A DNA stretch of 58,507 bases, taken from Alicyclobacillus tolerans (lineage in GTDB: Bacteria; Bacillota; Bacilli; Alicyclobacillales; Alicyclobacillaceae). The stretch is taken from positions 1-58,507 of the forward strand of contig NZ_JXBW01000020.1 of NCBI RefSeq assembly GCF_001447355.1, written 5' to 3'. The notes beneath the pieces were generated by a model. The model saw nothing but the letters and a program-made list of their open reading frames with translations. It was not told where the DNA came from and did not search any database. Positions 33,195-46,001 of this stretch are shown here, piece by piece; positions within the stretch are counted from its first letter, which is position 1, and the number at the start of each line of letters is the position of its first letter. A program made the position numbers and the translations under genes.

Positions 33195-34274
33195 ATGCGC
33201 ACGACGAAACAGATGTGGACCGTTGGCATGGTAACGGCAGGTATCCTTTTGAGTGGCACTGCGGCTCCTGTCTTCGCAAATCAATCGTTGACGGAGACAG
33301 GGTCTTCTCTCATGTATCCACTCTTCCAACAAGAATGGATTCCTGCATACAAGGCCGTCGCGCCAAACGTATCGATAAGCGCCGCCGCAACCGGTAGTGG
33401 TACTGGCATTTCGGATGCCATCGCGGGCACGGTGAACATCGGTGCTTCCGATGCATACCTTGCTCCTTCAGAGGTCGCCTCTGCCCCGGGCGTTGAGAAC
33501 ATTCCAATGGCAATTTCCGCCCAAACCATTATGTACAATTTGCCTGGCTTGAAGCCATCTCAGCACTTGAAACTGTCGGGCAACGTGCTTGCTTTGATTT
33601 ATGAGGGGAAAATTATGAAGTGGAATGACGCGCGTATTGCGGCATTGAATCGGGGGCTTCCGTTGCCCAATAAGCCCATTGTGACCGTGCGTCGCTCAGA
33701 CGGGAGTGGCGATACATTTCTCTTTACAACCTTGCTAAGCGATACAAATCATTGGTGGTCGGCAAACGTGGGGTATGGCACGAGTGTGTCATGGCCAGCG
33801 GTGCAAGGGCAGATCGGCGCGAAAGGCAACAGCGGGATCGTCGACGCCTTGGCCAAAACGCCGTACTCCCTCTCCTATGTGGGCATTAGTTATCTGAAAC
33901 AGGCGTTGGCAACGAGCCCGACCATGGGTGAAGCGGCTATGCAAAACCGCGCAGGCAAGTTTGTGTTGCCGACACCTGCAACGATTCAGGCGGCAGCAAA
34001 GGTTGGAGCCCAACACGTTCCGCAGGACGAGGCGATCTCGCTCATCTACGAGCCGGGAAGCGATTCGTATCCGCTCATTAATTTCGAGTATGTCATCGTC
34101 AACCGCAAGCAGCCGGACACCGATACGGCGACCATGCTAAAGGATTTCTTGCAGTGGGCGATCAGCCCTCGTGGCGGCCAGCAGGCGAAGTACATGACGC
34201 CTGTCAACTTTTTGCCGTTACCACCCAGTATCAGCGCGTTGAGCAAAGCGCAAATCGACCAGATTCATGGCTGA
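33195..34274 (+). CDS. pstS: Phosphate ABC transporter substrate-binding protein (PstS family)
   Basis: A protein of 359 residues with a signal peptide (hydrophobic TVGMVTAGILLSGTAAPVFA, cleavage near FAN) and no lipobox, unlike most Gram-positive PstS. The phosphate-site motifs are present: ETGSSLMYPLFQ, GSGTGISDAIAGTVNIGASDA, RSDGSGDTFLFT and KGNSGIVDAL. It would capture phosphate outside the cell, but no pstCAB transporter genes are adjacent and a strong terminator follows at once, so it is monocistronic. It may be a secreted or wall-retained phosphate binder. AGGAGGGTC precedes ATG 33195. Confidence 0.88.
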   Translation: MRTTKQMWTVGMVTAGILLSGTAAPVFANQSLTETGSSLMYPLFQQEWIPAYKAVAPNVSISAAATGSGTGISDAIAGTVNIGASDAYLAPSEVASAPGVENIPMAISAQTIMYNLPGLKPSQHLKLSGNVLALIYEGKIMKWNDARIAALNRGLPLPNKPIVTVRRSDGSGDTFLFTTLLSDTNHWWSANVGYGTSVSWPAVQGQIGAKGNSGIVDALAKTPYSLSYVGISYLKQALATSPTMGEAAMQNRAGKFVLPTPATIQAAAKVGAQHVPQDEAISLIYEPGSDSYPLINFEYVIVNRKQPDTDTATMLKDFLQWAISPRGGQQAKYMTPVNFLPLPPSISALSKAQIDQIHG

Positions 34275-34298
34275 TTTCTGTCATTTCGTCAGTCTTTC

Positions 34299-34329
34299 AG
34301 GCCCATGCGAGTTGGCATGGGCCTTTTTT
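34299..34329 (+). terminator. Terminator of pstS
   Basis: AGGCCCATGC (34299-34308) and GCATGGGCCT (34315-34324) form a perfect 10-bp stem with loop GAGTTG, followed by TTTTTT. Confidence 0.92.
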
Positions 34330-34419
34330 GTGTGGGACAACGGGTATGAGCGTCCAGACAAAAGGTGACAACAGACGTTTCATATTTCATAATGATGCTC
34401 ATGCAGTAAGGCCAGAGGA

Positions 34420-34737
34420 ATGAGAGTGAATATGTATATCGTGCATTCAACCATTGTCGTGCCTTTGGAGAAGGTGGACGAAGTCATTGCTATCTATCGC
34501 CACCGCACGAGACGCGTCGACAAGTGGCCAGGTTTTCTTTCATTTCAATTGTTGCAAAACGAACATCGCCCCGAAGAGCTGACCGTGCAATTGACCTGGC
34601 AAGACAAAGAGTCGTATTTGGCGTGGGCGCGAAGCGACGATTTTCGCCGCGTGCACGAACTCGAGAAGCGTTATCCGGACGCCGAATTAAAATCCGTGCG
34701 ACCGACAGTCCGGAAGTATCAGGTGGTGGCGGAGTGA
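34420..34737 (+). CDS. ABM-fold monooxygenase (heme-degrading HmoA/IsdG-like candidate)
   Basis: A protein of 105 residues with the ferredoxin-like ABM fold: YIVHSTIVVPLEKVDEVIAIY, WPGFLSFQLLQN, then LTWQDKESYLAWARSDDFRRVHE. W60, W69 and H79 fall in the Wx8WxxSxxF-xx-H pattern shared with IsdG-type heme oxygenases; the Asn of the IsdG triad is not obvious. The family either oxidises polyketides or cleaves heme to bilin-like products. ATG 34420 has CAGAGGA before it; ATG 34432 is an alternative. The next frame begins inside its stop codon, which couples it to the helical protein and the sensor kinase. Confidence 0.7.
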   Translation: MRVNMYIVHSTIVVPLEKVDEVIAIYRHRTRRVDKWPGFLSFQLLQNEHRPEELTVQLTWQDKESYLAWARSDDFRRVHELEKRYPDAELKSVRPTVRKYQVVAE

Positions 34738-35114
34738 TTGAGCAAATTTGTGCAGCGTGGATCGATGACGTGGTGGCAAATTTGTATCGGGAGCATCCCG
34801 AGTGGTACGAGCGATACGGTGAAGTGGGCAGGATCAAGTGTCGCGAGGATAACGTTCATCACGTGCGCCATCTCGAGACTGCGTTTCAGCTTGAGAACAT
34901 GGACATATTCACGGATTATGCAGTTTGGCTGAACGGGATATTAGAAGCGCATGGAATGTCCGTGGAGCATTTGATGGACAACCTGTGCAAGATGGTGGAA
35001 ACCGTTTCTGAAAGGACAGAGTTGACGGCGGAAAGGCGGGCGTTTTTTGCGAAAGCTTTAACGGCCGCCGTGGAAAGATTGCGGTCGCAATGCCGTTCTG
35101 CAGACAAGGGGTGA
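34734..35114 (+). CDS. All-helical protein resembling a domain found with cobalamin-binding modules
   Basis: A protein of 126 residues starting at GTG 34734 within the stop of the preceding gene. It is predicted to be wholly helical. A distinctive block RYGEVGRIKCREDNVHHVRHLE (about residues 27-48) contains Arg, Cys36 and His42/43, then FTDYAVWLNGILEAHGM. From memory, similar ERYGxxGRxxCxEDNxxH blocks occur in bacterial proteins that also carry a B12-binding domain; here it stands alone. It is 5 nt upstream of the CheB-CheR kinase. Function unknown; a sensory ligand- or chromophore-binding role is plausible given the B12 protein nearby. Confidence 0.6.
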   Translation: MIEQICAAWIDDVVANLYREHPEWYERYGEVGRIKCREDNVHHVRHLETAFQLENMDIFTDYAVWLNGILEAHGMSVEHLMDNLCKMVETVSERTELTAERRAFFAKALTAAVERLRSQCRSADKG

Positions 35115-35119
35115 GACGC

Positions 35120-38100
35120 ATGACTTCATCCGAACTGCGACCGTCCTACATCGTAGGGATTGGTGCATCTGCCGGCGGGCTGGAAGCGCTCACGGCTTTG
35201 TTTGAACATCTTGCACCGGATACAGGGATGGCATTCGTCGTCATTCAACACTTATCACCTAACTATCGAAGCTTTATGGCGGAGTTGCTTGGCACGCACA
35301 CGTCGATGCGCATTGTGCAAGCCGAACACGATATGCCCATCGAACCCAACGTCGTCTACTTAAATCCACCGCGTAAGAATCTTTTTATTGAAAATGGGCG
35401 TCTCGTTGTGCACGACCACACAGCGATCAAGGGAGAATTGCATCTTCCTATCGACGGCTGTTTTCATTCGCTTGGGCAGGATATTCGGGAGCGGGCAGTG
35501 GGTGTGGTGCTCTCCGGCACTGGTAGCGACGGTTCGCGCGGTATTGTCACCATCAAGCGCAACGGCGGCAAGGTCTTTGTTCAGGACGAATCGGCGAAAT
35601 TTGACGGTATGCCGCGCAGTGCGTTGGCCTCAGGCGTCGTCGATGCGGTACTACCGCCAGACCAGTTGGCCGCTCAATTAAATAGTCTCGCACGCGGTGA
35701 ACTGATGGTCGGGACCACGCGATCGCATGAGCATGTATCCGGCGAGGATCATGACGATGAGATGGATTCACAAAAATATCAGCGGTTACTGGATTTGCTT
35801 TTTCAAAATACAGGCATCGACTACCAGGTGTACAAGCGCGATGGCGTCATTAGGCGTTTAAAACGAAGGATGGGTATCGAGAACATCCCGGACGTTGAGC
35901 AGTATCTCGAGCTATTGCAGACGCACCCGGAGTCGGTGCAGGATTTGCACAAAGACTTGCTCATTGGTGTGACGAGTTTTTTTCGCGATCCGAAGGCGTT
36001 TCAAATTATATATGAGCAAGTGTTACCCCAGATCTTTGCAAACCGGGCACGCGAGCGGGAAGTGCGTGTTTGGGTGGCTGGTTGCTCGACGGGTGAAGAG
36101 GCCTATTCCATCGCCATCTTGATGCAAGAATATATGGCGGCAACCGGAACGAAGTATAACGTGAAAATCTTTGCGACCGATTTAGATAGGGATGCAATCG
36201 CCTTTGCGGGGGACGGCGTGTATCCCGTCGAGATCGAAAAGGTCGTGAATCGGACGCGACTACAAGCGTTTTTCACGCGCGTCGATGCAGGTTACCAGGT
36301 CAAGCCCGAGATTCGCAAAATGATTATCTTTGCGCCGCATAACATCACGAAAGACCCGCCGTTCATCAATACCGATTTGATTACGTGTCGCAACATGTTG
36401 ATCTATTTACAATCGGACGTGCAGCATCGGATATTGTCACTGTTTCATTTCGCGCTGCATTCTCATGGATTTTTGTTTCTGGGGCCCAGTGAAAGCATTG
36501 GCCGGTTGGCCAATCTGTTTGTGCCCGTGAATACGAAGTGGAACATCTTTCAGCACGCAGATGCGAGCGGTGCGCTGGCATTGTATCAGCAGGCGCCATC
36601 CTTGCCGACGGGTATCAAAGTGGCGTCAGCACACGTCGATTTAGCTCCGCGCGCGGAAGCCGTAAAGCAGCAAACACGGGTGGGCGGGTCATCGCACACG
36701 GACGAACTGTACCGCATTTTTGTCGAGGAGCACATGCCTGCTTGTGTCGTGATCGACGACAAACAGGACGTCGTGTCGTTACACGGAAATGTCAACAAGT
36801 ATCTAGCTCTTGCCAGTGGTAGACCCAGTAACAACGTTCACAAGATGTTCGACTCATCGATTTCGGTGGCTATCGTGACGGCTATCAGTAAGATCCGAAA
36901 GGGCAGCCTGGAAGTCGTTTACGATGACGTGCATATGAAAGATGGCAACGATGTGCGCGTCACTTTGGTGGTTCGCCCGCTTTCCCACAACGTGGACCGT
37001 TTTCGCAACCATGTCTTGGTTCTCTTTAAAGAGGTGGAACGTAGGCCGCAATCGGTGTCCACGTATGGCGATATGGTGACAAGCGTCAACCAGCACGTGA
37101 TTGAACTGGAACGGGAACTGCAGATGTATCAAGAAAAGTTGCAAGTCACGGTCGAGGAGTTAGAGACATCGAACGAAGAACTGCAGGCAACCAATGAGGA
37201 AATTGTTGCTGCCAACGAAGAGTTACAGAGTACGAACGAAGAATTACATTCCGTCAACGAAGAGCTACTGACGATCAACGCGGAATACCAGCTCAACATT
37301 CAGCAGTTGACGGAATTGAACAATGACATGGACAACTTCCTCGCAAGTACGCAAATTGGAACGTTGTTTCTGGATCGCGAGATGAAGGTCAGGCGGTTTA
37401 CGCCAGCAATTACAAAAGAAATCAACTTGCTTGAAGTCGATATTGGGCGGCCCATCTCGCATATCTCGCATCATCTCAAGTACGATGAAATGATTCAGGA
37501 TGCGGAAAAGGTATTGGCCACCAGTATACCGATTGAACGCGAGATCGAAAGCAAGACAGGGCATTGGTACAGTGTCCGGATTTTGCCGTACCGCACGGCT
37601 GAGCAACCCATTAAGGGCACAGTGCTGACATTCGTCGATATCACAAGCATGAAGAAGATGAACGAAGAGCTGCGCAAGTTGTCCTATGCCATTGAGCAAA
37701 GTCCGAGCATCGTCGTCATTACCGACCCATCCGGCGCGATCGAATACGTGAATCCTAAGTTCTGTGAGTGCACGGGCTTTACACACGACGAGATGGTTGG
37801 CAAGGATATCGCGTCACTGCATGTATGGGGCAGTGGTGAGACAAGTTATGCGTCCGTCTGGAACTCGGTGGTCGGCGGGAGTCGCTGGGCAGGCGAGTTG
37901 CCAACCCTGCGCAAGGACGGTACGACATATTGGGAGTCGCTGTCGCTCGTTCCCATTTTGAGCGATCAGGGTGACACGATTCATTACTTGAAGGTTGCGG
38001 AGGATATTACGGAAATCAAGGAAACGGAAGAACTTCTCCGCAAGTCGGAAATGTTGTCCGCTGTCGGAGAGTTGGCGGCGGGCATTGCGCATGAAATTCG

Positions 38101-38719
38101 CAACCCACTGACGGCGTTAAAGGGCTTTACGAAGTTGATTCGCACGGGTTCGCACAGCGAGTCATATTTGGAAATTATGCATCAGGAATTAGAGCGGATC
38201 GAGTCGATTATTAACGAGTTGCTTGTGCTGTCCAAACCGCAGGCGTTACATTTCAAACCGGCCAACTTGGTCGACGTGATTCGAGATGTCGTGATGCTGT
38301 TAGAGACTCAGGCCTTGCTTAATCAGGTGGAGATTGTGTTTGAAACGGCGACGGAAGAGTTGACGATTGAGTGCGTCGAAAACCAGCTGAAGCAGGTGTT
38401 TATCAACCTCGTGAAAAATGCCATTGAGGCGATGCCAAATGGCGGCGTCGTATCCGTGAACTTGGCGTTGACTGCTGACGAAGACGTGCTGTTGACCGTG
38501 CAGGATCAAGGGGTAGGCATTCCTGAGGAGAAGCTGGCGCGACTCGGCGAGCCGTTCTACACGACAAAAGACAAAGGGACAGGCCTTGGCCTTATGGTGA
38601 GCTTCAAAATTGTGGAACAGCACGGCGGAACGATCCGCTATCGCAGTGCCCCGGGACAGGGTACGACGGCAGAAATCCGCTTGCCATTGCACAAATCGCC
38701 GACTGCGGACGCCCGGTAA
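35120..38719 (+). CDS. CheB-CheR-PAS-histidine kinase fusion
   Basis: A protein of 1199 residues. Domains in order: CheB methylesterase (about residues 8-190; catalytic Ser17 in GASAGG, His44 in VIQHL, Asp137 in GTGSDG), CheR methyltransferase (about 225-470; SAM motif [14 protein letters not shown]), a linker, a repetitive Glu/Asn-rich coiled coil (about 656-735, NEELQ repeats), PAS (about 745-855), PAS (about 860-970), HisKA with His991 in AHEIRNPLT, and HATPase ([25 protein letters not shown]). No receiver domain is present. ATG 35120 follows AAGGGGTGAG. It is cytosolic, and its cognate response regulator is not in this cluster. Confidence 0.92.
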
Positions 38720-38753
38720 ACGGGCGCTCGCGATCGGCGATTTTCATGCCCCA

Positions 38754-39314
38754 TCACAATGCCACTTGTGCGTGTTCTTGAATTAATGTGCGCAGGCTAT
38801 CCAGTTCCTTCAGAATCAGTTCGGCATAGATGCCTTTGCCGATTTCAATCAGGTCGCTATGCAAGATTCCCATCAGTTCTTCGATAGTATGGATAGATTG
38901 GTTAATGTGGCTCCAGATCTCTTCTTGTGATTCCTGGGTAGTTTGAATAGACTCCCCGCTGACACGATGCTGTTCCAGTCGCGCCACCGAGTGTAAGACC
39001 TCTTCCAAATCGGATTGCCGCGGTACGCAGGCGACAAAGCCAATCGTATCTCCATCCTCTGTCGTGCGCCAACGGTGATACACATCGAACAGGCCAATGC
39101 CTTGCGGCATGCAGAAGTTTAACTCGACTTTAATTCCCGACATCGATGGGCACAAAAAGCGGGATAACTTTGTGCGACTGCCGTGATCGATCACGTCAAG
39201 GATATTTGCTACTTTTTTGCCGAAGGTCGCTTTTGCCGTGTCGGACATTTGGATCACGTCATAGTTTTCGAAGACGATGAATCCAGGCACAGGTAGATGT
39301 TCCAAGGCGTGCAT
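38754..39314 (-). CDS. PAS-like regulatory protein
   Basis: A protein of 186 residues. The first half (LPVPGFIVFENYDVIQMSD, then FCMPQGIGLFDVYHRW and DTIGFVACVPRQSDLEEVL) resembles a PAS fold. The second half is a helical, probably coiled-coil region (SQEEIWSHINQSIHTIEELMGI...GKGIYAELILKELDSL). There is no output domain, so it probably works by protein contact. It starts 15 bp after the B12-binding gene, in the same direction, so they form an operon and likely one signalling pathway. AGGAG lies 12 nt upstream of ATG. Confidence 0.65.
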   Translation of the reverse strand: MHALEHLPVPGFIVFENYDVIQMSDTAKATFGKKVANILDVIDHGSRTKLSRFLCPSMSGIKVELNFCMPQGIGLFDVYHRWRTTEDGDTIGFVACVPRQSDLEEVLHSVARLEQHRVSGESIQTTQESQEEIWSHINQSIHTIEELMGILHSDLIEIGKGIYAELILKELDSLRTLIQEHAQVAL

Positions 39315-39329
39315 TGCGTGTTCAGACTC

Positions 39330-39977
39330 CTATTGTGCGTGGGCTTTGGACTGGGCGCGCAGCGCCAGCCACTCTTGCAAGTGTAAGATGTCGTTGATGA
39401 TCAATGCGCTGTCGCCAACATACGGGCGCAAATCATACATCTGTGTCAATCTGCCGCCAATTAAGAGCGTCGGATGATGGGCGAGGGAGCCCAGTTCTTG
39501 CACATACGTCTTCAGCTTCGGTAGATGATAGACTATCGAGACAGACATGCCAATGATGTCTGGGTGCCAACGCAAGGCTGCCAGCAAGGCGTATTCAAGA
39601 GGAAGGTCTTTGCCATACAGGCGCGTTTCAAATCCGCATTCCTCAAAACACGACGCTACCATTTTGATGCCGAGATCGTGTTGCTCACCTTCAATACAAA
39701 ATAACATAGCCTTACCTTGTGTCGGGGGGACCACTCTGCTCGGTTGGCACCGCTTGAGTAGTGCATCGCAGACAGACGACGCCAGGTGCTCATCAGCCAC
39801 AGAAATCAAATTTGCCTCCCAAAGTTCGCCGATGTGCCGCATCGCCTTGCACAGCAAAACGTCGTAGATATAGGCAAGGTTTGCACCGCCCTGCACGTAC
39901 GTTTGAATGACTCCCCATGCGGCTGCCTCGTCGCCTTCTAGCAGAGGCTTTACCAATTTGAGTGCGTCAAATACCAT
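39330..39977 (-). CDS. Cobalamin-binding sensor protein with CarH-like W-x9-EH motif
   Basis: A protein of 215 residues. A four-helix cap (about residues 5-80) contains W53, then nine residues, then E63-H64: the W-x9-EH signature of adenosylcobalamin photoreceptors of the CarH/LitR type. A Rossmann-type B12-binding domain follows with EGEQHDLG (axial His100), exactly 41 residues to S145-V-S147, and 26 residues to GG174-175, matching the DxHxxG-x41-SxL-x26-28-GG rule apart from Glu for Asp. There is no MerR DNA-binding domain, so output must be through partners. AAGGAGACCGCC precedes ATG 39977. Confidence 0.88.
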   Translation of the reverse strand: MVFDALKLVKPLLEGDEAAAWGVIQTYVQGGANLAYIYDVLLCKAMRHIGELWEANLISVADEHLASSVCDALLKRCQPSRVVPPTQGKAMLFCIEGEQHDLGIKMVASCFEECGFETRLYGKDLPLEYALLAALRWHPDIIGMSVSIVYHLPKLKTYVQELGSLAHHPTLLIGGRLTQMYDLRPYVGDSALIINDILHLQEWLALRAQSKAHAQ

Positions 39978-40158
39978 GGCGGTCTCCTTATCTATCCGAG
40001 TGTTCTATGCGTTGGCATGCAAGTTCCATAAAGCGGGCGAAGATGTGGAAGGATTATAGCGTCAATAGTTCAAGCATAGTCACCCGGTCCAATAGAAGCA
40101 ACAGGAAGTTTCCGCGCCTCCTGCTACTGTTTTTAGCCTACTTTCAGCTTTTGTTCAG

Positions 40159-40182
40159 ATGTCTTTCAACGAACAAAGACAT
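40159..40182 (+). promoter_or_regulatory. Perfect 8-bp inverted repeat upstream of gtrA operon
   Basis: ATGTCTTT (40159-40166) and AAAGACAT (40175-40182), separated by 8 nt, lie 50 bp before the gtrA-like start and 180 bp from the divergent B12 gene. The arrangement suits an operator for a dimeric regulator; no T-run follows, so it is not a terminator. Confidence 0.4.
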
Positions 40183-40232
40183 ACTGAGTAGGGTTACTCG
40201 TCTCAGGCAGCGGAAAGGGGACGAATCGACGC

Positions 40233-40691
40233 ATGGTGGGCATCCATTTTGCGGGAAGCAAGGTACAGAAGATTGCCCGCCAGGTTCTAGCTTTTAGCTT
40301 GGGTGGCGTGCTGAATACCGCGGTCGATTCAGGAGTTTTTTGGATACTGGAACATGGGATGCACTGGGCACCCTGGTGGGCACAAGTGATTTCGTATCTG
40401 TGTGGATTTTGCAATAGTTTTCTTTGGAATCGTCGGTTTACATTCGAGCGGAAAGGCATGGATTTGTGCCAGGTTGGCCGCTTTGCACTGGTAAATGCCA
40501 TCTCCCTTGTCGTCTCCATATGCGCGCTGCTCTGGCTGCGGCACAGTGCCATGCCGATGATGGCTGATAAACTTTGCGTGACGGCGATCACGATGTTGAT
40601 CAATTTTGCAGGAGGAAAGTGGTGGGTATGGCGTGACAACGACGCAAACACTATACAATCCGGCCCAGATTCGGCTCCTTGTCGTCGATGA
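40233..40691 (+). CDS. GtrA-like membrane protein
   Basis: A protein of 152 residues with four membrane helices and the GtrA pattern: FSLGGVLNTAVDSGVFWIL in TM1, YLCGFCNSFLWNRRFTFE between TM2 and TM3, and a C-terminal INFAGGKWWVWR. GtrA proteins are proposed flippases or adaptors in glycan modification or export. AAGGGGACGAATCGACGC precedes ATG 40233. Its 3' end overlaps the start of the response regulator, so it is part of a three-gene operon with a two-component system. Confidence 0.85.
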   Translation: MVGIHFAGSKVQKIARQVLAFSLGGVLNTAVDSGVFWILEHGMHWAPWWAQVISYLCGFCNSFLWNRRFTFERKGMDLCQVGRFALVNAISLVVSICALLWLRHSAMPMMADKLCVTAITMLINFAGGKWWVWRDNDANTIQSGPDSAPCRR

Positions 40692-41337
40692 TGAGATAAG
40701 CATCGTTAAGTTTCTTGAACTGGGTCTCAAACGCGAAGGGTATGATGTGCGTATCGCCCAAGATGGTATTCATGCGATCAATCTCGCTCGTCAACAGTTG
40801 CCCCATGTCGTGATTCTCGATGTGATGATGCCAGGACCGGACGGCTTTGAAGTGTGTGGCATGCTGAAGCGGTTGGGCGATGTCGCCGTCATTCTGCTCA
40901 CGGCGCGCGACGCGATCGATGACCGCGTCAAAGGTTTAATGGGTGGTGCCGACGATTATTTGGTAAAACCGTTCAGTTTTCAGGAACTGCTCGCTCGCAT
41001 TCACGCTCGCGTACGCAATCAGTTTCCACAACTTCTGTTGCGCCGCCAGATTGGTCCCTTTGTCATCGACGACGCTCGCAAGGAAATCTGGTATCGCGAC
41101 GAATTGTTGCGGCTATCGACGACAGAGTATGAACTTCTGCACTATCTGGTACGCAACAACGGTATTGTTTTAAGCAAAGCGCAAATTTTGGACGCAGTGT
41201 GGGGCTACGACTTTGGCGGCCAGGATAATATTGTCGAAGTTTACATCAGTGTGCTTAGGGATAAGCTCTGCGATACGGAAAGAACGCTGATTCGTACGCT
41301 GCGGGGGCAGGGATACCGGGTGGATATTGAACGATGA
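40633..41337 (+). CDS. OmpR-family response regulator
   Basis: A protein of 234 residues: receiver domain with the acidic pair VVDDE, phosphorylatable Asp63 in VILDVMMPG, TAR and KPF motifs; then a winged-helix Trans_reg_C domain with LSTTEYELLHYLVRN and VYISVLRDKL...IRTLRGQGYRVD. GTG 40633, with GGTGGG 6 nt before it, is a likely start inside the end of gtrA; TTG 40606 is the longest alternative. The stop overlaps the kinase gene by 4 bases. Confidence 0.9.
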   Translation: MTTTQTLYNPAQIRLLVVDDEISIVKFLELGLKREGYDVRIAQDGIHAINLARQQLPHVVILDVMMPGPDGFEVCGMLKRLGDVAVILLTARDAIDDRVKGLMGGADDYLVKPFSFQELLARIHARVRNQFPQLLLRRQIGPFVIDDARKEIWYRDELLRLSTTEYELLHYLVRNNGIVLSKAQILDAVWGYDFGGQDNIVEVYISVLRDKLCDTERTLIRTLRGQGYRVDIER

Positions 41338-42860
41338 TGTTGTGGAGACATGCCAAAACACGGCTGCATGAGCTTGGAGTACGAGTGCGCGAAAAGCCAC
41401 TGAGTTTGCAACTTGTCATGGCCTCACTGCTGCTGTTAAGCGGCGTCATGGCGATCATCGGCGGCGTGCAGGCCGTGTTCATGCGTCAATTCTTGTACCA
41501 GCAGACAGCGCGATCACTACATCAGGACATCATGTCGACGCCAGGACAAGTGTGGATGTGGTTGGCCACACAAGCGGCGTCCTCCACCGCCGGTCCAGCC
41601 ATACACATGCAGCCCATGCCGTTTCTTGAACCTGGTGGCACCATCGCGTATGTCGATATGACAGGAAACGTTCACCCTATTCTTGCGTCCGCTCGCGTAC
41701 CCGTGTTGCCGCGCCAAGATTATGAGGCCATGTTGACATTTGGCGTAGGGTTGGCCTCGTACCGCCTTGTTGCGACAAACGTAGGTCAGGAGCTAGTTGT
41801 CACATCGATCATTGGTAGACCGGATAACCCTACCGGCCTTGTGCAAATTTCAGTGCCGACCGCGACGCTCAACACCATGGTCTGGCGGCAGTTGCGCCTG
41901 TATGGCGTGATTGCATTTGCTGCGCTGGCAGTTGGATCGATACTCTACATTCCCTTGGTTAGGCGTACGCTCGTTCCCTTGCGCCGAGTGGTCGATCACG
42001 CTCATCGCTTTAACATTGGCAACCTTGAAGAGCGCGTTCCACTTGCCAAAGGCATGCAAGCAGAAGTCAAGTCACTCGCTACGTCATTCAACGCAATGCT
42101 CGATAGAATTGCGACGGCGTTTCAAGCGGAACGTGAAGCTAAAGAGCAGATGCGACAATTTGTGGCCGACGCATCGCATGAATTGCGTACACCATTGACC
42201 GCCATCGGCGGGTACATTGAAGTTTTGCTGCGCGGAGGAGAGTTTACGACAACTGAATTACAGGATGCTTTGCGGCAGATGCACGGCGAAACACGGCGAT
42301 TATCTTCATTGGTTCAGCAATTGTTGGAACTAGCCCAGGTAGATCAAACCGAAGGTGATGCATATCGCCAATTGCCATTCGGCGACGTTGACATTGCTCG
42401 CTTGGTTGTTGACATGAAGCCTATCTTAGAGATGATTGTGCAAGGCCGGGATCTGCGGCTTGAGGTGCCCGTAAGCGCAGTAATGGTCCGTGGAAATGCG
42501 GCGGCGTTGAGACAAGTAATCATGAATCTCGTGCAAAACGCAGCCCAACATACATCGCCTGCGAACGGTCGTATTGCGCTCGTTGTGAAGAATGTGCCGG
42601 GCAAGGCGCAATTGTGTGTCGCAGACAATGGTGTTGGCGTAGCAAAGGAACATCAAGTTCGCCTGTTTGAACGGTTCTATCGGGTGGACTCCGCCAGATC
42701 GCGCGCGAACGGTGGTGCCGGTCTTGGATTGGCGATTTGCAAGTCACTGGTGGAAGTTCATCACGGCGAAATTTGGTGTGAAAGCGAGCCGGGTCAAGGG
42801 GCAACTTTTGTGGTCGAGTTGCCACTGAAACCTGCCGTGAGTGAGGATGGACGCGGTTGA
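41334..42860 (+). CDS. Membrane sensor histidine kinase
   Basis: A protein of 508 residues: N-terminal helix, an extracellular domain of about 140 residues, second helix (about 190-210), HAMP domain (RRTLVPLRRVVDHAHRF), HisKA with His282 in DASHELRTPLTA, and HATPase with N-box NLVQNAAQH, DNGVGV and GAGLGLAICKS. It should phosphorylate the coupled OmpR regulator. The ligand of the outer domain is not known. The context (gtrA upstream; polysaccharide synthase downstream) suggests control of surface glycan genes. Confidence 0.92.
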   Translation: MMLWRHAKTRLHELGVRVREKPLSLQLVMASLLLLSGVMAIIGGVQAVFMRQFLYQQTARSLHQDIMSTPGQVWMWLATQAASSTAGPAIHMQPMPFLEPGGTIAYVDMTGNVHPILASARVPVLPRQDYEAMLTFGVGLASYRLVATNVGQELVVTSIIGRPDNPTGLVQISVPTATLNTMVWRQLRLYGVIAFAALAVGSILYIPLVRRTLVPLRRVVDHAHRFNIGNLEERVPLAKGMQAEVKSLATSFNAMLDRIATAFQAEREAKEQMRQFVADASHELRTPLTAIGGYIEVLLRGGEFTTTELQDALRQMHGETRRLSSLVQQLLELAQVDQTEGDAYRQLPFGDVDIARLVVDMKPILEMIVQGRDLRLEVPVSAVMVRGNAAALRQVIMNLVQNAAQHTSPANGRIALVVKNVPGKAQLCVADNGVGVAKEHQVRLFERFYRVDSARSRANGGAGLGLAICKSLVEVHHGEIWCESEPGQGATFVVELPLKPAVSEDGRG

Positions 42861-42975
42861 GGGGGCAGGAAGATGCAGTTCATAGGCTCAATTCTCTTCT
42901 ATTATCTTGCTGAGAATCGATTGTTGATTATATAATCGTGCACAATGGATTTCGTTATCATGAGGAGGACTCCCG

Positions 42976-43749
42976 TTGCCCAAAGCGAAATTGGCCATGA
43001 CCATCTCTCTGGCTGTTCTCTGCATCCCAATCACATGGACATTATCCGGAATGCTGCCGCAAGCCATCTGGGAGTGTTTGGTCGCTGTCGTGGTCGCCTC
43101 GGCGTTTGTCTATCTATTTATGGGCAATGTAGCTTCGTTCGTGTGGTTGGCGGCACAGATATTTATCACAGGTTCCGGTGTTACAGTTTATGCATGGCGA
43201 AGAGGTCTCGCGATGGGAGGGGAGTGGCGATGGATTGCCTTACACCTTCTCTATGTCATGTTGAGTGTGTCTGTATGGCTTTGTGTTTCCTTCCTGAAAG
43301 GAATGGCTGAGCAACTACTCCATTTACATTCCAAAGTAAATTCCTTGGAAAAGACGGTATCACAAGATGGTCTATTGACCGCGCACGAGTTTGTGTATCA
43401 GGTGGACGCGGCGCTGAGGAACATGGCACGCCGAGAGGAGACTGGCTACCTGCTTATCCTTTGCGTACGTGCCAAGCATAGCAAAAATGCCCTTTTTCAC
43501 TCGTTGGCGAGTGCGGCAGTGCAATCCGTGCGTGAACGATTCGATCTTGTCGGTGTCATTGACAATTGTATTTATATGTTGTTGCAACGAACAGAAGGAG
43601 AAGGTGTTGACACGGTATTGGAGCGCATAGCGGCGCGGATGGGATCGTATATCATCCCTTCGTTTAGAGATTGGGTCGACGTGGAACGCATACCGCTGCC
43701 AGTGGGAGCGACCGTCGAATCCATAGGACTGCAGGAGTACTTGGCATGA
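42976..43749 (+). CDS. Membrane protein with a degenerate GGDEF-like domain (YdaK-like)
   Basis: A protein of 257 residues: three or four membrane helices (residues about 5-105), a short coiled linker (HSKVNSLEKTVSQ), then a domain beginning DGLLTAHEFVYQVDAAL, where GGDEF proteins carry DxLTGLxNR, and containing LVGVIDNCIYMLL where GGDEF should stand. The signature residues are lost, so it cannot be an active cyclase. This layout matches Bacillus YdaK, a c-di-GMP receptor controlling the YdaLMN polysaccharide machinery. TTG 42976 follows GAGGAGG by 7 nt. It overlaps the GT2 start (ATGA). Confidence 0.6.
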   Translation: MPKAKLAMTISLAVLCIPITWTLSGMLPQAIWECLVAVVVASAFVYLFMGNVASFVWLAAQIFITGSGVTVYAWRRGLAMGGEWRWIALHLLYVMLSVSVWLCVSFLKGMAEQLLHLHSKVNSLEKTVSQDGLLTAHEFVYQVDAALRNMARREETGYLLILCVRAKHSKNALFHSLASAAVQSVRERFDLVGVIDNCIYMLLQRTEGEGVDTVLERIAARMGSYIIPSFRDWVDVERIPLPVGATVESIGLQEYLA

Positions 43750-44960
43750 GCGCGCTCCTTCTTTGCATTTCGGGGCTCTTTTGGTTGCTCTTGATGTATT
43801 ATGCGGGTCTTGATGTGCTTGGCGTCGCCTTTCGTACTCGGCAGTCGCCACACCCAACACTGAACAGTTACCCAGCCGTATCGATATTGATTCCCGCGCA
43901 CAACGAGGGCAAGGTCATCGCACGAACGCTTGAGGCGATGGTGCGCTTAGAATACCCGGGGGAATTGGAAATTCTGGTCTTGAACGACGGTTCTACGGAT
44001 AATAGTGGGGAGATTATCGATGAATTTGCCCGTACGTATCGATGCGTTCAGCACGTGTCAGTACCTGAAGGCTACCCAAAAGGTAAGGCGCGTGTGCTAA
44101 ACCATGGCCTGACGCTCGCGAAGGGCGATTGGATAGCTGTATACGATGCGGATAATCAGCCTGAACCCGACGCTTTACGGCTCTTAGTCGAGGCCAGCTT
44201 GTCGACCGTTGGAGCTGTCGGCGCTGTCGGCTATGTGAAGACCATTAACGCAGAAAAAAATTGGCTAACGCGAATGATTGCCATTGAGTTTTCCGTGTTC
44301 CAGCTTCTCATGCAGTCAGGACGCTGGTCGGCAATGAAAATAGGCTCACTTACGGGAACGAATATGATTGTTTCAAAGGAGGCGTTACGTAGCGCAGGGG
44401 CCTGGGATCCCTATGCATTGGCGGAGGATGCGGATTTGACCATGAAGTTGACTGCAGCTGGCGGACTTTTGCCCGTAGTGCCGCAATCTCGTACTTGGGA
44501 GCAGGAGCCTGAAACGTTTCGTGTCTGGTTTCGACAGCGAACACGATGGATGCAAGGGAACATATACTTGATTGAAAAGATGGTTCGTCTTCCTGAGTGG
44601 CGAAGGGGCCGAGTCGTTGCTCACACGTTGCAACAACTGTCTGTGTATATCGTGTTTGTCTTCTTCTTGCTCGTTTCAGATCTTTGGTTTGTATTAGGCG
44701 AATTAGGTCTTGTGCATACACATTCGGATATTCCTTTGCTCGTGATGTGGTTTGAGTCACTCCTTTTTTACATTGTTCAATTAATTAGCGCAGAGGCACT
44801 TGATGGATTGCTGAGTTTGCCTAACGTACTGATGGCAACGCTGATGTATTTTACGTATGCTCAGATATGGATTGTATTATTGGTGCGCGCTGCCTGGAAA
44901 CATATTCGGCAACGGCGTAGCCAGGCAATGCCAGTCTGGGACAAAACGATCCGCTTTTAA
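43746..44960 (+). CDS. GT2 polysaccharide synthase (YdaM/BcsA-like)
   Basis: A protein of 404 residues: N-terminal helix, VSILIPAHNE, VLNDGSTDN, AVYDADNQPEPDA (DxD), LAEDADLTMKLTAAGG and QRTRWMQG (QxxRW), then four C-terminal helices. This is a processive inverting membrane glycosyltransferase. ATG 43746 overlaps the stop of the degenerate GGDEF gene, which couples synthesis to the putative c-di-GMP receptor. The polymer is not known. A second synthase of this class (PgaC-like) lies at 10289-11530. Confidence 0.88.
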   Translation: MSALLLCISGLFWLLLMYYAGLDVLGVAFRTRQSPHPTLNSYPAVSILIPAHNEGKVIARTLEAMVRLEYPGELEILVLNDGSTDNSGEIIDEFARTYRCVQHVSVPEGYPKGKARVLNHGLTLAKGDWIAVYDADNQPEPDALRLLVEASLSTVGAVGAVGYVKTINAEKNWLTRMIAIEFSVFQLLMQSGRWSAMKIGSLTGTNMIVSKEALRSAGAWDPYALAEDADLTMKLTAAGGLLPVVPQSRTWEQEPETFRVWFRQRTRWMQGNIYLIEKMVRLPEWRRGRVVAHTLQQLSVYIVFVFFLLVSDLWFVLGELGLVHTHSDIPLLVMWFESLLFYIVQLISAEALDGLLSLPNVLMATLMYFTYAQIWIVLLVRAAWKHIRQRRSQAMPVWDKTIRF

Positions 44961-44978
44961 GGTGAAAACAGGCATGTA

Positions 44979-45839
44979 TCAGGCCGGCGAGCGATGAAGT
45001 TCTCTCGTTTTCTGGTTACCCGGCTCCCTCATCAGTTCGTGTACTGTCACTGCAACCTCCGCGCCTATCAGTAGGATGATACAGACAATGTAAATCCAGA
45101 ATGTAAGCAACATGACGAACGTAAAGGCTCCGTACAGAATGGAATAGGAACCTAAATGGTGGGTATAAATCACATAGCCAAAGCGGCTCAGGTAGATAAA
45201 AACAGTCGCAATCAGCGCGCCCACGACCAAGGGTACATTGCTCAGTCTACGGGAAGGTAGGATCCGGTAACAACAGTAACACGTGATGAACAGGACAATG
45301 GGAAACACGATCTGCCCAAGATGATGTAATCCATGTGTTGCTGATGCGTTCGTCAGGTGCGTGATGGTGACCAGGAAGATTGGCGATATCCACGTTATGA
45401 GTGATGAAGCGACGGTGAGCACAAGCAAAATCCCCATCATGACAAAACCAACGACGTACTGAATCCAAAAGGAGCGGCGTGTCTTCACTTCGTAAATTGT
45501 ATCAAGCACCTGTTGAAGGGTTACGAATCCACCAATGGCACCCCATAATAATCCGATGATCCCAATGACCCGAATGTCTGCGCGATACATGGTGAGATGG
45601 TGAATGGTTGTCGCTGCAAATGTTGCCCCCGTGGGTATGGGCGGTATGTACGACTGCAAAACACCTTCGATGAACCGGGCAACTGTGGTATTTGGGACAA
45701 ACAGCGAAGCAATGAATATCAGCAAGGCACACACCGGCATGAGTGAAGAGAACCCGAAGAAAGCGATGATGGCAGCCAATGAGCCGATATTGTGTTTGAT
45801 CACGGCGCGAATAAGCCTTGTAAAAAATGTTTTTATCAT
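44979..45839 (-). CDS. YihY/virulence factor BrkB family membrane protein
   Basis: A protein of 286 residues with six membrane helices and the BrkB/YihY pattern: LAAIIAFFGFSSLMPVCALL in TM1, GIIGLLWGAIGGFVTLQQVLDTIYEV, and YGAFTFVMLLTFWIYIVCIILLIGAEV in the last pair. Function is unsettled; a transport role is proposed. ATG 45839 is a conservative choice: the frame is open upstream to 46037 but runs into the tRNA-Pro gene and its terminator, so that extension is not real. The ribosome site is weak. Confidence 0.82.
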   Translation of the reverse strand: MIKTFFTRLIRAVIKHNIGSLAAIIAFFGFSSLMPVCALLIFIASLFVPNTTVARFIEGVLQSYIPPIPTGATFAATTIHHLTMYRADIRVIGIIGLLWGAIGGFVTLQQVLDTIYEVKTRRSFWIQYVVGFVMMGILLVLTVASSLITWISPIFLVTITHLTNASATHGLHHLGQIVFPIVLFITCYCCYRILPSRRLSNVPLVVGALIATVFIYLSRFGYVIYTHHLGSYSILYGAFTFVMLLTFWIYIVCIILLIGAEVAVTVHELMREPGNQKTRELHRSPA

Positions 45840-45922
45840 ATGTACAGTGTTACCCAATTGCGTTTGAAAATTGTATGTAAGGCTCTTGATGCAAATCCGC
45901 AGAACCTGCTTTATGAACAGCA

Positions 45923-45953
45923 AAATCCACTTACCTGTTCGGTAAGTGGATTT
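45923..45953 (-). terminator. Terminator of tRNA-Pro
   Basis: AAATCCACTTACC (45923-45935) and GGTAAGTGGATTT (45941-45953) form a perfect 13-bp stem with a TGTTC loop, and the minus-strand side ends in TTTT. It lies about 50 bp downstream of the tRNA gene. Confidence 0.85.
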
Positions 45954-46001
45954 CGATCCGCGACACGGAGCTAGCACGAAGGCTTTCACAGCACTTTCAT
46001 A

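Follow-up and report, generated by a model that had tools for sequence, protein, structure and literature searches.

The stand-alone B12-binding protein encoded on the minus strand at 39330..39977 of the window (the whole 58,507-nucleotide stretch of Alicyclobacillus tolerans contig NZ_JXBW01000020.1 analysed here) probably provides the cobalamin-binding half of a light sensor of the photocobilin type, the bilin half being a separate photoglobin. With the two halves encoded by separate genes, the cell may sense light using a receptor assembled from loose parts. The genes and sites concerned are as follows.

34299..34324, plus strand: terminator-like hairpin and T run, separating the monooxygenase gene from the PstS-like gene upstream of it
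34365-34393: promoter-like site, after the terminator-like hairpin
34432..34737, plus strand: ABM-family HmuQ/IsdG-like haem monooxygenase, 101 AA; a start at 34420 is also possible
34734..35114, plus strand: putative photoglobin (bilin-type globin), stand-alone, 126 AA; its GTG start overlaps the preceding stop
35120..38719, plus strand: CheB-CheR-PAS-PAS-HisKA-HATPase protein, convergent with the B12-PAS pair; translation could also begin in frame at 35090
38754..39314, minus strand: PAS partner P0002, 186 AA; PAS fold, coil and a hairpin of two helices alignable to the DHp of PAS-kinases
39330..39977, minus strand: B12-binding protein P0001, stand-alone, 215 AA; complete light-responsive signature

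The B12 protein carries a complete light-responsive signature

The ORF of the B12 protein runs on the minus strand from an ATG start at 39977 down to 39330 (215 AA), and the plus-strand reading of 39330-39977 in the frame of this ORF is interrupted by stops. Pfam gave a B12-binding domain (E 5.9e-14) and a cap domain, B12-binding_2 (E 3.3e-12), which span the protein as a complete cap-plus-Rossmann B12 domain; these two are the only domains given, a MerR or other DNA-binding domain being absent. The first-pass annotation had described a light-responsive type of B12 protein that stands alone, without an output domain, and this description is borne out: W53, E63, H64, E98, H100, G103, S145, S147 and G174-G175 all lie in the ORF translation at the positions it gave, and the four SignatureFinder signatures (GxxW, EH, GxxH and GxxxP) are all present, as G50..W53, E63H64, G97..H100 and G122...P126. 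In the accessible text of PMC11796333, this signature marked four green-light-responding proteins and was missing from a negative control.

Conservation of these residues was assessed across relatives of the locus. Matches to a pattern were obtained for 145 stretches in named genomes, 129 of which encode relatives, and the best 80 of the 129 were kept, all titled or placed as Bacillota. In the 80-row alignment of the B12 protein (the window and 79 of the 80 loci), W53, E63, H64, E98, H100 and G103 are each conserved in 80/80 rows, P126 in 79/80, S147 in 51/80 and G97 in 45/80. Given that the loci were collected using cap peptide patterns, including LW and DEH, the invariance of Trp and EH is partly due to selection, while E98, H100, G103 and P126 lie outside the patterns. 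The first-pass annotation had also read the spacing of the lower motif as a match to CarH/LitR. However, E98-x-H-x-x-G-x41-S-x-S-x26-GG is the general MetH-type cobalamin motif and does not mark out CarH; judged by sequence comparison, what discriminates is the W-x9-EH of the cap, for which the match stands.

The same annotation had framed the protein in terms of CarH; the light-responsive B12 type is retained, and photocobilins take the place of CarH as the nearest solved structures. A phmmer search of the PDB placed the photocobilin SasPcob (8j2w, 8j2x) at the top, followed by the corrinoid protein 1y80, AbPcob (8j2y) and CtMerR (8jbs), with CarH behind these, so that the B12 protein is closer in sequence to photocobilins than to CarH. 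At the position of CarH's His (H132), directly after the cap Trp, the window protein has Glu54 (E 72, Q 7 and L 1 among the 80 rows); in the available part of PMC11796333, SasPcob has Gln at this place and AbDPcob has Tyr. As no His follows the cap Trp, a bis-His light state of the CarH type is not expected, and the light state of SasPcob is likewise described as without bis-His ligation in the excerpted text of PMC10979010. The CarH-like reading was rejected on the absence of both the MerR domain and an equivalent of H132.

It is very improbable that the B12 protein is instead the corrinoid subunit of a methyltransferase of the MtaC/MtgC kind. Such a role would fit the presence of 1y80 among the near PDB matches and an NCBIfam score for MtaC (36.0 bits) approaching that for TransRegCarH (37.7), but both scores lie far under their cut-offs (420 and 400 bits, respectively), and in the alignment 1y80 has neither the cap Trp nor EH. 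Moreover, a PAS signalling gene adjoins the B12 gene at 75 of the 80 loci, and no methyltransferase was recognised by eye beside the B12 gene in the ORF list from 34000 to 46000. The methyltransferase reading was rejected on these low scores and the missing partner enzyme.

Elsewhere in the window's genome, the sole other B12 match is a 1,085-AA frame, apparently MetH-like, in which F and EV replace the cap Trp and EH; the same search gave no CarH-like protein. A PduO-type adenosyltransferase is encoded in this genome, in which no BtuR was found. The same B12 protein occurs in A. hesperidum DSM 12489 with 98% identity, and PHROGs returned no match for either the B12 or the PAS protein.

A putative photoglobin and a haem-monooxygenase-like gene

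The PAS-like gene that the first-pass annotation paired with the B12 gene does start 15 bp downstream of it on the same strand (39314-38754), and its assignment as PAS is upheld; as the only companion it is not, since the photoglobin at 34734-35114 and the haem-monooxygenase-like gene had been overlooked. The photoglobin gene lies 4.2 kb from the B12 gene and shares a GTGA overlap with the monooxygenase gene. Neither the photoglobin nor the PAS partner is named by Pfam, or by NCBIfam above cut-off. A search of the PDB with the single photoglobin sequence gave nothing useful, and matches were obtained only with a 48-row profile, the four best being phycocyanin alpha (E 4.5e-4) and three photocobilin chains (E 0.022-0.027), so that the sequence match to photocobilins is weak (E about 0.02). 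Nevertheless, D39 and W65 of the globin are invariant (64/64 rows) and align to D270 and W296 of SasPcob, which correspond to chain numbers 264 and 290 after an offset of 6 set by W61, E71 and H72. Both SasPcob residues are bilin contacts in the accessible text of PMC10979010. The AlphaFold model of the photoglobin is all-helical (pLDDT 95.5), and in a Foldseek search with it 46 of the best 50 of 336 matches (E up to 10) have titles naming phycobiliproteins, smURFP or SasPcob, no match with E < 0.001 being among the matches listed. The Asp lies in a Cys-Arg-Glu-Asp motif in the window. A covalently bound bilin is possible on this sequence, and is not general as the Cys (Cys36) is kept in only 44/64 globin rows.

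For the monooxygenase, the best NCBIfam model is the haem-degrading HmuQ, with a score (44.7 bits) under the cut-off of 130; most relatives of the enzyme in the PDB are haem monooxygenases. IsdG enzymes use an Asn-Trp-His catalytic triad, of which the Trp and His positions are conserved here and an invariant Ser occupies that of Asn, leaving the triad incomplete. From this sequence kinship, a linear tetrapyrrole would be a plausible product. The monooxygenase gene is present at 62 of the 63 globin-bearing loci, the exception being L031, and at 0 of the 17 globin-less loci, which therefore have neither gene. Regional counts of promoter-like (7 vs 5.6) and terminator-like sites (4 vs 6.0), such as those upstream of the monooxygenase gene, are near those in shuffled sequences.

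Split and fused arrangements across Bacilli

A recurring gene order was observed in the relatives' loci, namely an ABM monooxygenase of ~101 AA, a globin of ~120 AA, the B12 protein and the PAS protein. In most Bacilli loci all four genes run in one direction, whereas the window has two sets on opposite strands. Within about 6 kb, globin is absent at 17 of the 80 loci, including four of the ten PAS-only loci (L022, L059, L060 and L088).

In a class survey of 299 genomes (profile cut-offs of E 1e-8 for globin and E 1e-30 for the B12 protein), globin was found in 42 genomes, the B12 protein in 40 and both in 36. At the cut-offs used, 4/40 B12 genomes have no globin and 6/42 globin genomes have no B12 protein, and in at least one of these six (G222, locus L107) the B12 half is present below cut-off on the reading frame. 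Thirteen of the 42 globin genomes carry globin and B12 domain in a single frame and 22 more have them within 6 kb, the gap being 18-52 bp in 15 of these 22 non-fused pairs. The remaining seven comprise four whose globin frames are 361-367 AA long (G222 among them), one with globin and B12 protein on separate contigs (G157) and two with globin fragments only (G148 and G226). As both domains form one polypeptide in other genomes of the class, the window's photocobilin would be one that is split in two. The main ground for treating the globin and B12 genes of the window as two parts of a single sensor is the 362-AA globin-B12 protein at L106 (G130), which conserves the Trp and EH and aligns with both the window B12 protein (30%, 1e-26) and the window globin (30%, 3e-13). 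Within the window's order (59 genomes), globin is confined to six of the 15 genus members, and all six also encode the B12 protein. A seventh genome of the order with the B12 protein, G027, encodes it twice and lacks a globin anywhere in its genome.

The window's two opposite strand sets and the 17 loci where the B12 protein has no nearby globin would also fit a different reading, in which the genes for the haem monooxygenase, the photoglobin and the CheB-CheR-kinase belong to one bilin-sensing operon and the B12-PAS pair to another system, their linkage being only historical. We consider this improbable in view of the one-direction arrangement in most Bacilli loci, the 13 fused pairs and the short gaps of the non-fused ones. 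In addition, among the PAS-only loci of the window's tree group, the CheB-CheR gene is convergent with the B12-PAS pair in Alicyclobacillus and divergent from it in Paenibacillus and Neobacillus, indicating that the two kept their linkage through a change of orientation.

Several loci depart from these patterns. Three genomes of one genus (G108, G227 and G244) have three copies of the B12 protein each, one copy being beside a globin. A Tumebacillus locus (L076:6001-7703) looks decayed, with a B12 frame that stops early, intact-looking monooxygenase and globin genes and only a fragment of CheB. At L039, L043, L050 and L053, which form one tree group (support 94, not starred), monooxygenase, globin and B12 protein are present and the PAS partner is unrecognised.

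The PAS partner and exchangeable outputs

The predicted structure of the PAS partner consists of a PAS domain, a coil and two helices (pLDDT 81), and its fold matches are PAS domains, with haem PAS domains of FixL among them. The protein does not qualify as a histidine kinase, as Pfam gives no HATPase and the alignment no phosphoacceptor His; a Ser is aligned to the phosphoacceptor His of the L009 kinase. At the same position, G027 encodes a PAS-HisKA-HATPase protein (L009), with the phosphoacceptor His kept, or a degenerate version of it (L008). When the profile of 13 PAS-only partners was compared with that of six PAS-kinases, 185 columns reaching through the DHp helices were aligned (E 1.7e-35), much of the score coming from the PAS part. 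By profile similarity the PAS partner is related to PAS-histidine kinases but has no ATPase part. Used alone, the PAS-only profile reached a PDB kinase at no better than E 2.5, and no direct similarity was seen between the PAS partner and the neighbouring CheB-CheR-kinase.

PAS domains frequently bind haem or flavin. Together with the FixL matches and the haem-degrading-type gene adjoining the globin, this would suit a tetrapyrrole or redox sensor built from the same parts, in which the globin senses bilin from haem breakdown, the B12 protein senses the supply of cobalamin or the state of cobalt, and the PAS protein and kinase report. Such a sensor appears unlikely, given that the light-responsive signature of the B12 protein is complete and that the fused globin-B12 kin share the architecture of proven photoreceptors.

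Of the 80 loci, 58 have a PAS-STAS partner, seven a PAS-kinase, ten a PAS-only protein and five no partner, and output modules are exchanged between lineages. All ten PAS-only loci have a CheR-type neighbour, as against 0 of the 65 PAS-STAS or PAS-kinase loci; nine of these neighbours are CheB-CheR-kinases, and the tenth (L088:7274-8311) is a CheR protein without CheB or kinase part. In a quick tree, all but one of the 11 PAS-only rows, the window's among them, fall in one starred group (SH-aLRT 95), and the combination of PAS-only partner and CheR is made up of one starred group plus L088. The association is therefore to be counted as one or two evolutionary events, not ten, and a tree-aware test found a single independent pair on starred branches and no significance; a Fisher p value, which takes no account of kinship, is given no weight. 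Searching genomes for the B12 gene beside PAS and CheB-CheR-kinase genes, as the first-pass annotation had suggested, recovered this arrangement in all six globin-bearing genus members. All CheB, CheR and kinase catalytic-type motifs searched for are present in the window's CheB-CheR-kinase, and five MCP-domain matches occur in its genome.

Further kinases were noted at or near these loci. The PAS-kinases at L044, L046, L052, L055, L061, L068 and L083 have lost the phosphoacceptor His (to Asn, Gly, Glu, Gly, Asn, Arg and Lys, respectively) and kept the ATPase motifs, and may be ATPases or pseudokinases. A hybrid histidine kinase directly follows the globin-B12 fusion at L106:3703-6507 and L107:3359-6128 as a further output type. 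Just past the B12 gene, the window encodes a response regulator and a sensor kinase (40606-42860), neighbours kept in some genus members.

We tentatively put forward a wider scheme, which is less likely than not to hold: a two-pigment photoreceptor acting in trans, with its own pigment enzyme, would feed through one family of PAS adaptors into exchangeable outputs, namely STAS (stressosome-like), kinase or, via a kinase-derived stub, CheB-CheR-kinase.

Proposed mechanism of light sensing

In the split light sensor proposed here, the chromophores, light response, protein contacts and direction of output would be as follows. The haem-monooxygenase-like enzyme would supply a linear tetrapyrrole to the photoglobin, and AdoCbl would sit in the B12 protein with His100 under the cobalt and Trp53 and Glu63-His64 surrounding the adenosyl group. 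Photoglobin and B12 protein would associate like their fused kin, bringing bilin and cobalamin next to each other, and either green light via AdoCbl or red light via the bilin could then cleave the Co-C bond. By analogy with SasPcob, cleavage would shift the helix carrying E63-H64. This shift may alter the hold of the B12 protein on the PAS partner, with the B12 protein acting on the PAS-adjacent helix as in the AerR-CrtJ model. The PAS partner, having no output domain of its own, would hand the state by contact to the CheB-CheR-PAS-kinase.

Significance and comparison with known systems

Photocobilins characterised so far are single polypeptides that bind AdoCbl and biliverdin and change oligomer state in light, and the split form in Bacilli provides a naturally occurring means of testing which contacts transmit the light signal. 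With its likely bilin enzyme and swappable outputs, it is also a possible green/red switch for Gram-positive hosts. If the wider scheme holds, the CheB-CheR-kinase output would bring methylation-type signalling of Bacillota under the control of green and red light. PAS-STAS is the commonest partner in the 80 loci; activation of SigB of B. subtilis by blue and red light has been reported (excerpted text of PMC3019169).

Already in print, as far as the available parts of PMC10979010 and PMC10151467 go, are photocobilins, photoglobins and the clusters of globin, B12 and haem-oxygenase genes in Myxococcales. Our literature search found no paper on the split form in Bacillota or its outputs, though the founding photoglobin paper may already list such neighbourhoods. 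In that paper (Schneider et al. 2022), photoglobin is reportedly often associated with B12-binding domains and signalling genes.

CarH and LitR have the cap W-x9-EH and the lower His in common with the window B12 protein; CarH differs in its MerR domain and in the His (H132) beside the cap Trp, where the window protein has no MerR domain and Glu54. AerR/PpaA is a stand-alone B12 protein that, in the accessible text of PMC9144470, is proposed to act by contact on a helix between PAS domains of CrtJ/PpsR. AerR itself (7te2) is a weak sequence match to the B12 protein in the PDB (E 0.023), and the target of AerR/PpaA is a PAS-HTH protein, whereas the window's PAS partner has no DNA-binding domain.

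The photoglobin (BBAG-2) clusters resemble the window in keeping globin, B12 and haem-oxygenase genes separate, and BBAG-2 binds biliverdin (excerpted text of PMC10151467). The same text places these clusters in Myxococcales and relatives, makes no mention of Bacillota, Firmicutes, Bacillus or Paenibacillus and gives output genes that differ from the window's. The window's oxygenase is of the ABM/IsdG kind. The photocobilins SasPcob and AbDPcob share the Trp, EH and ExH of the B12 domain and the Asp and Trp contacts of the bilin globin, and have Gln or Tyr after the cap Trp where the window has Glu, none of them having His (available part of PMC10979010). In that source they are single polypeptides, whereas the window divides the same two domains between genes on opposite strands, 4.2 kb apart, and accompanies them with genes for a monooxygenase, a PAS protein and a CheB-CheR-kinase.
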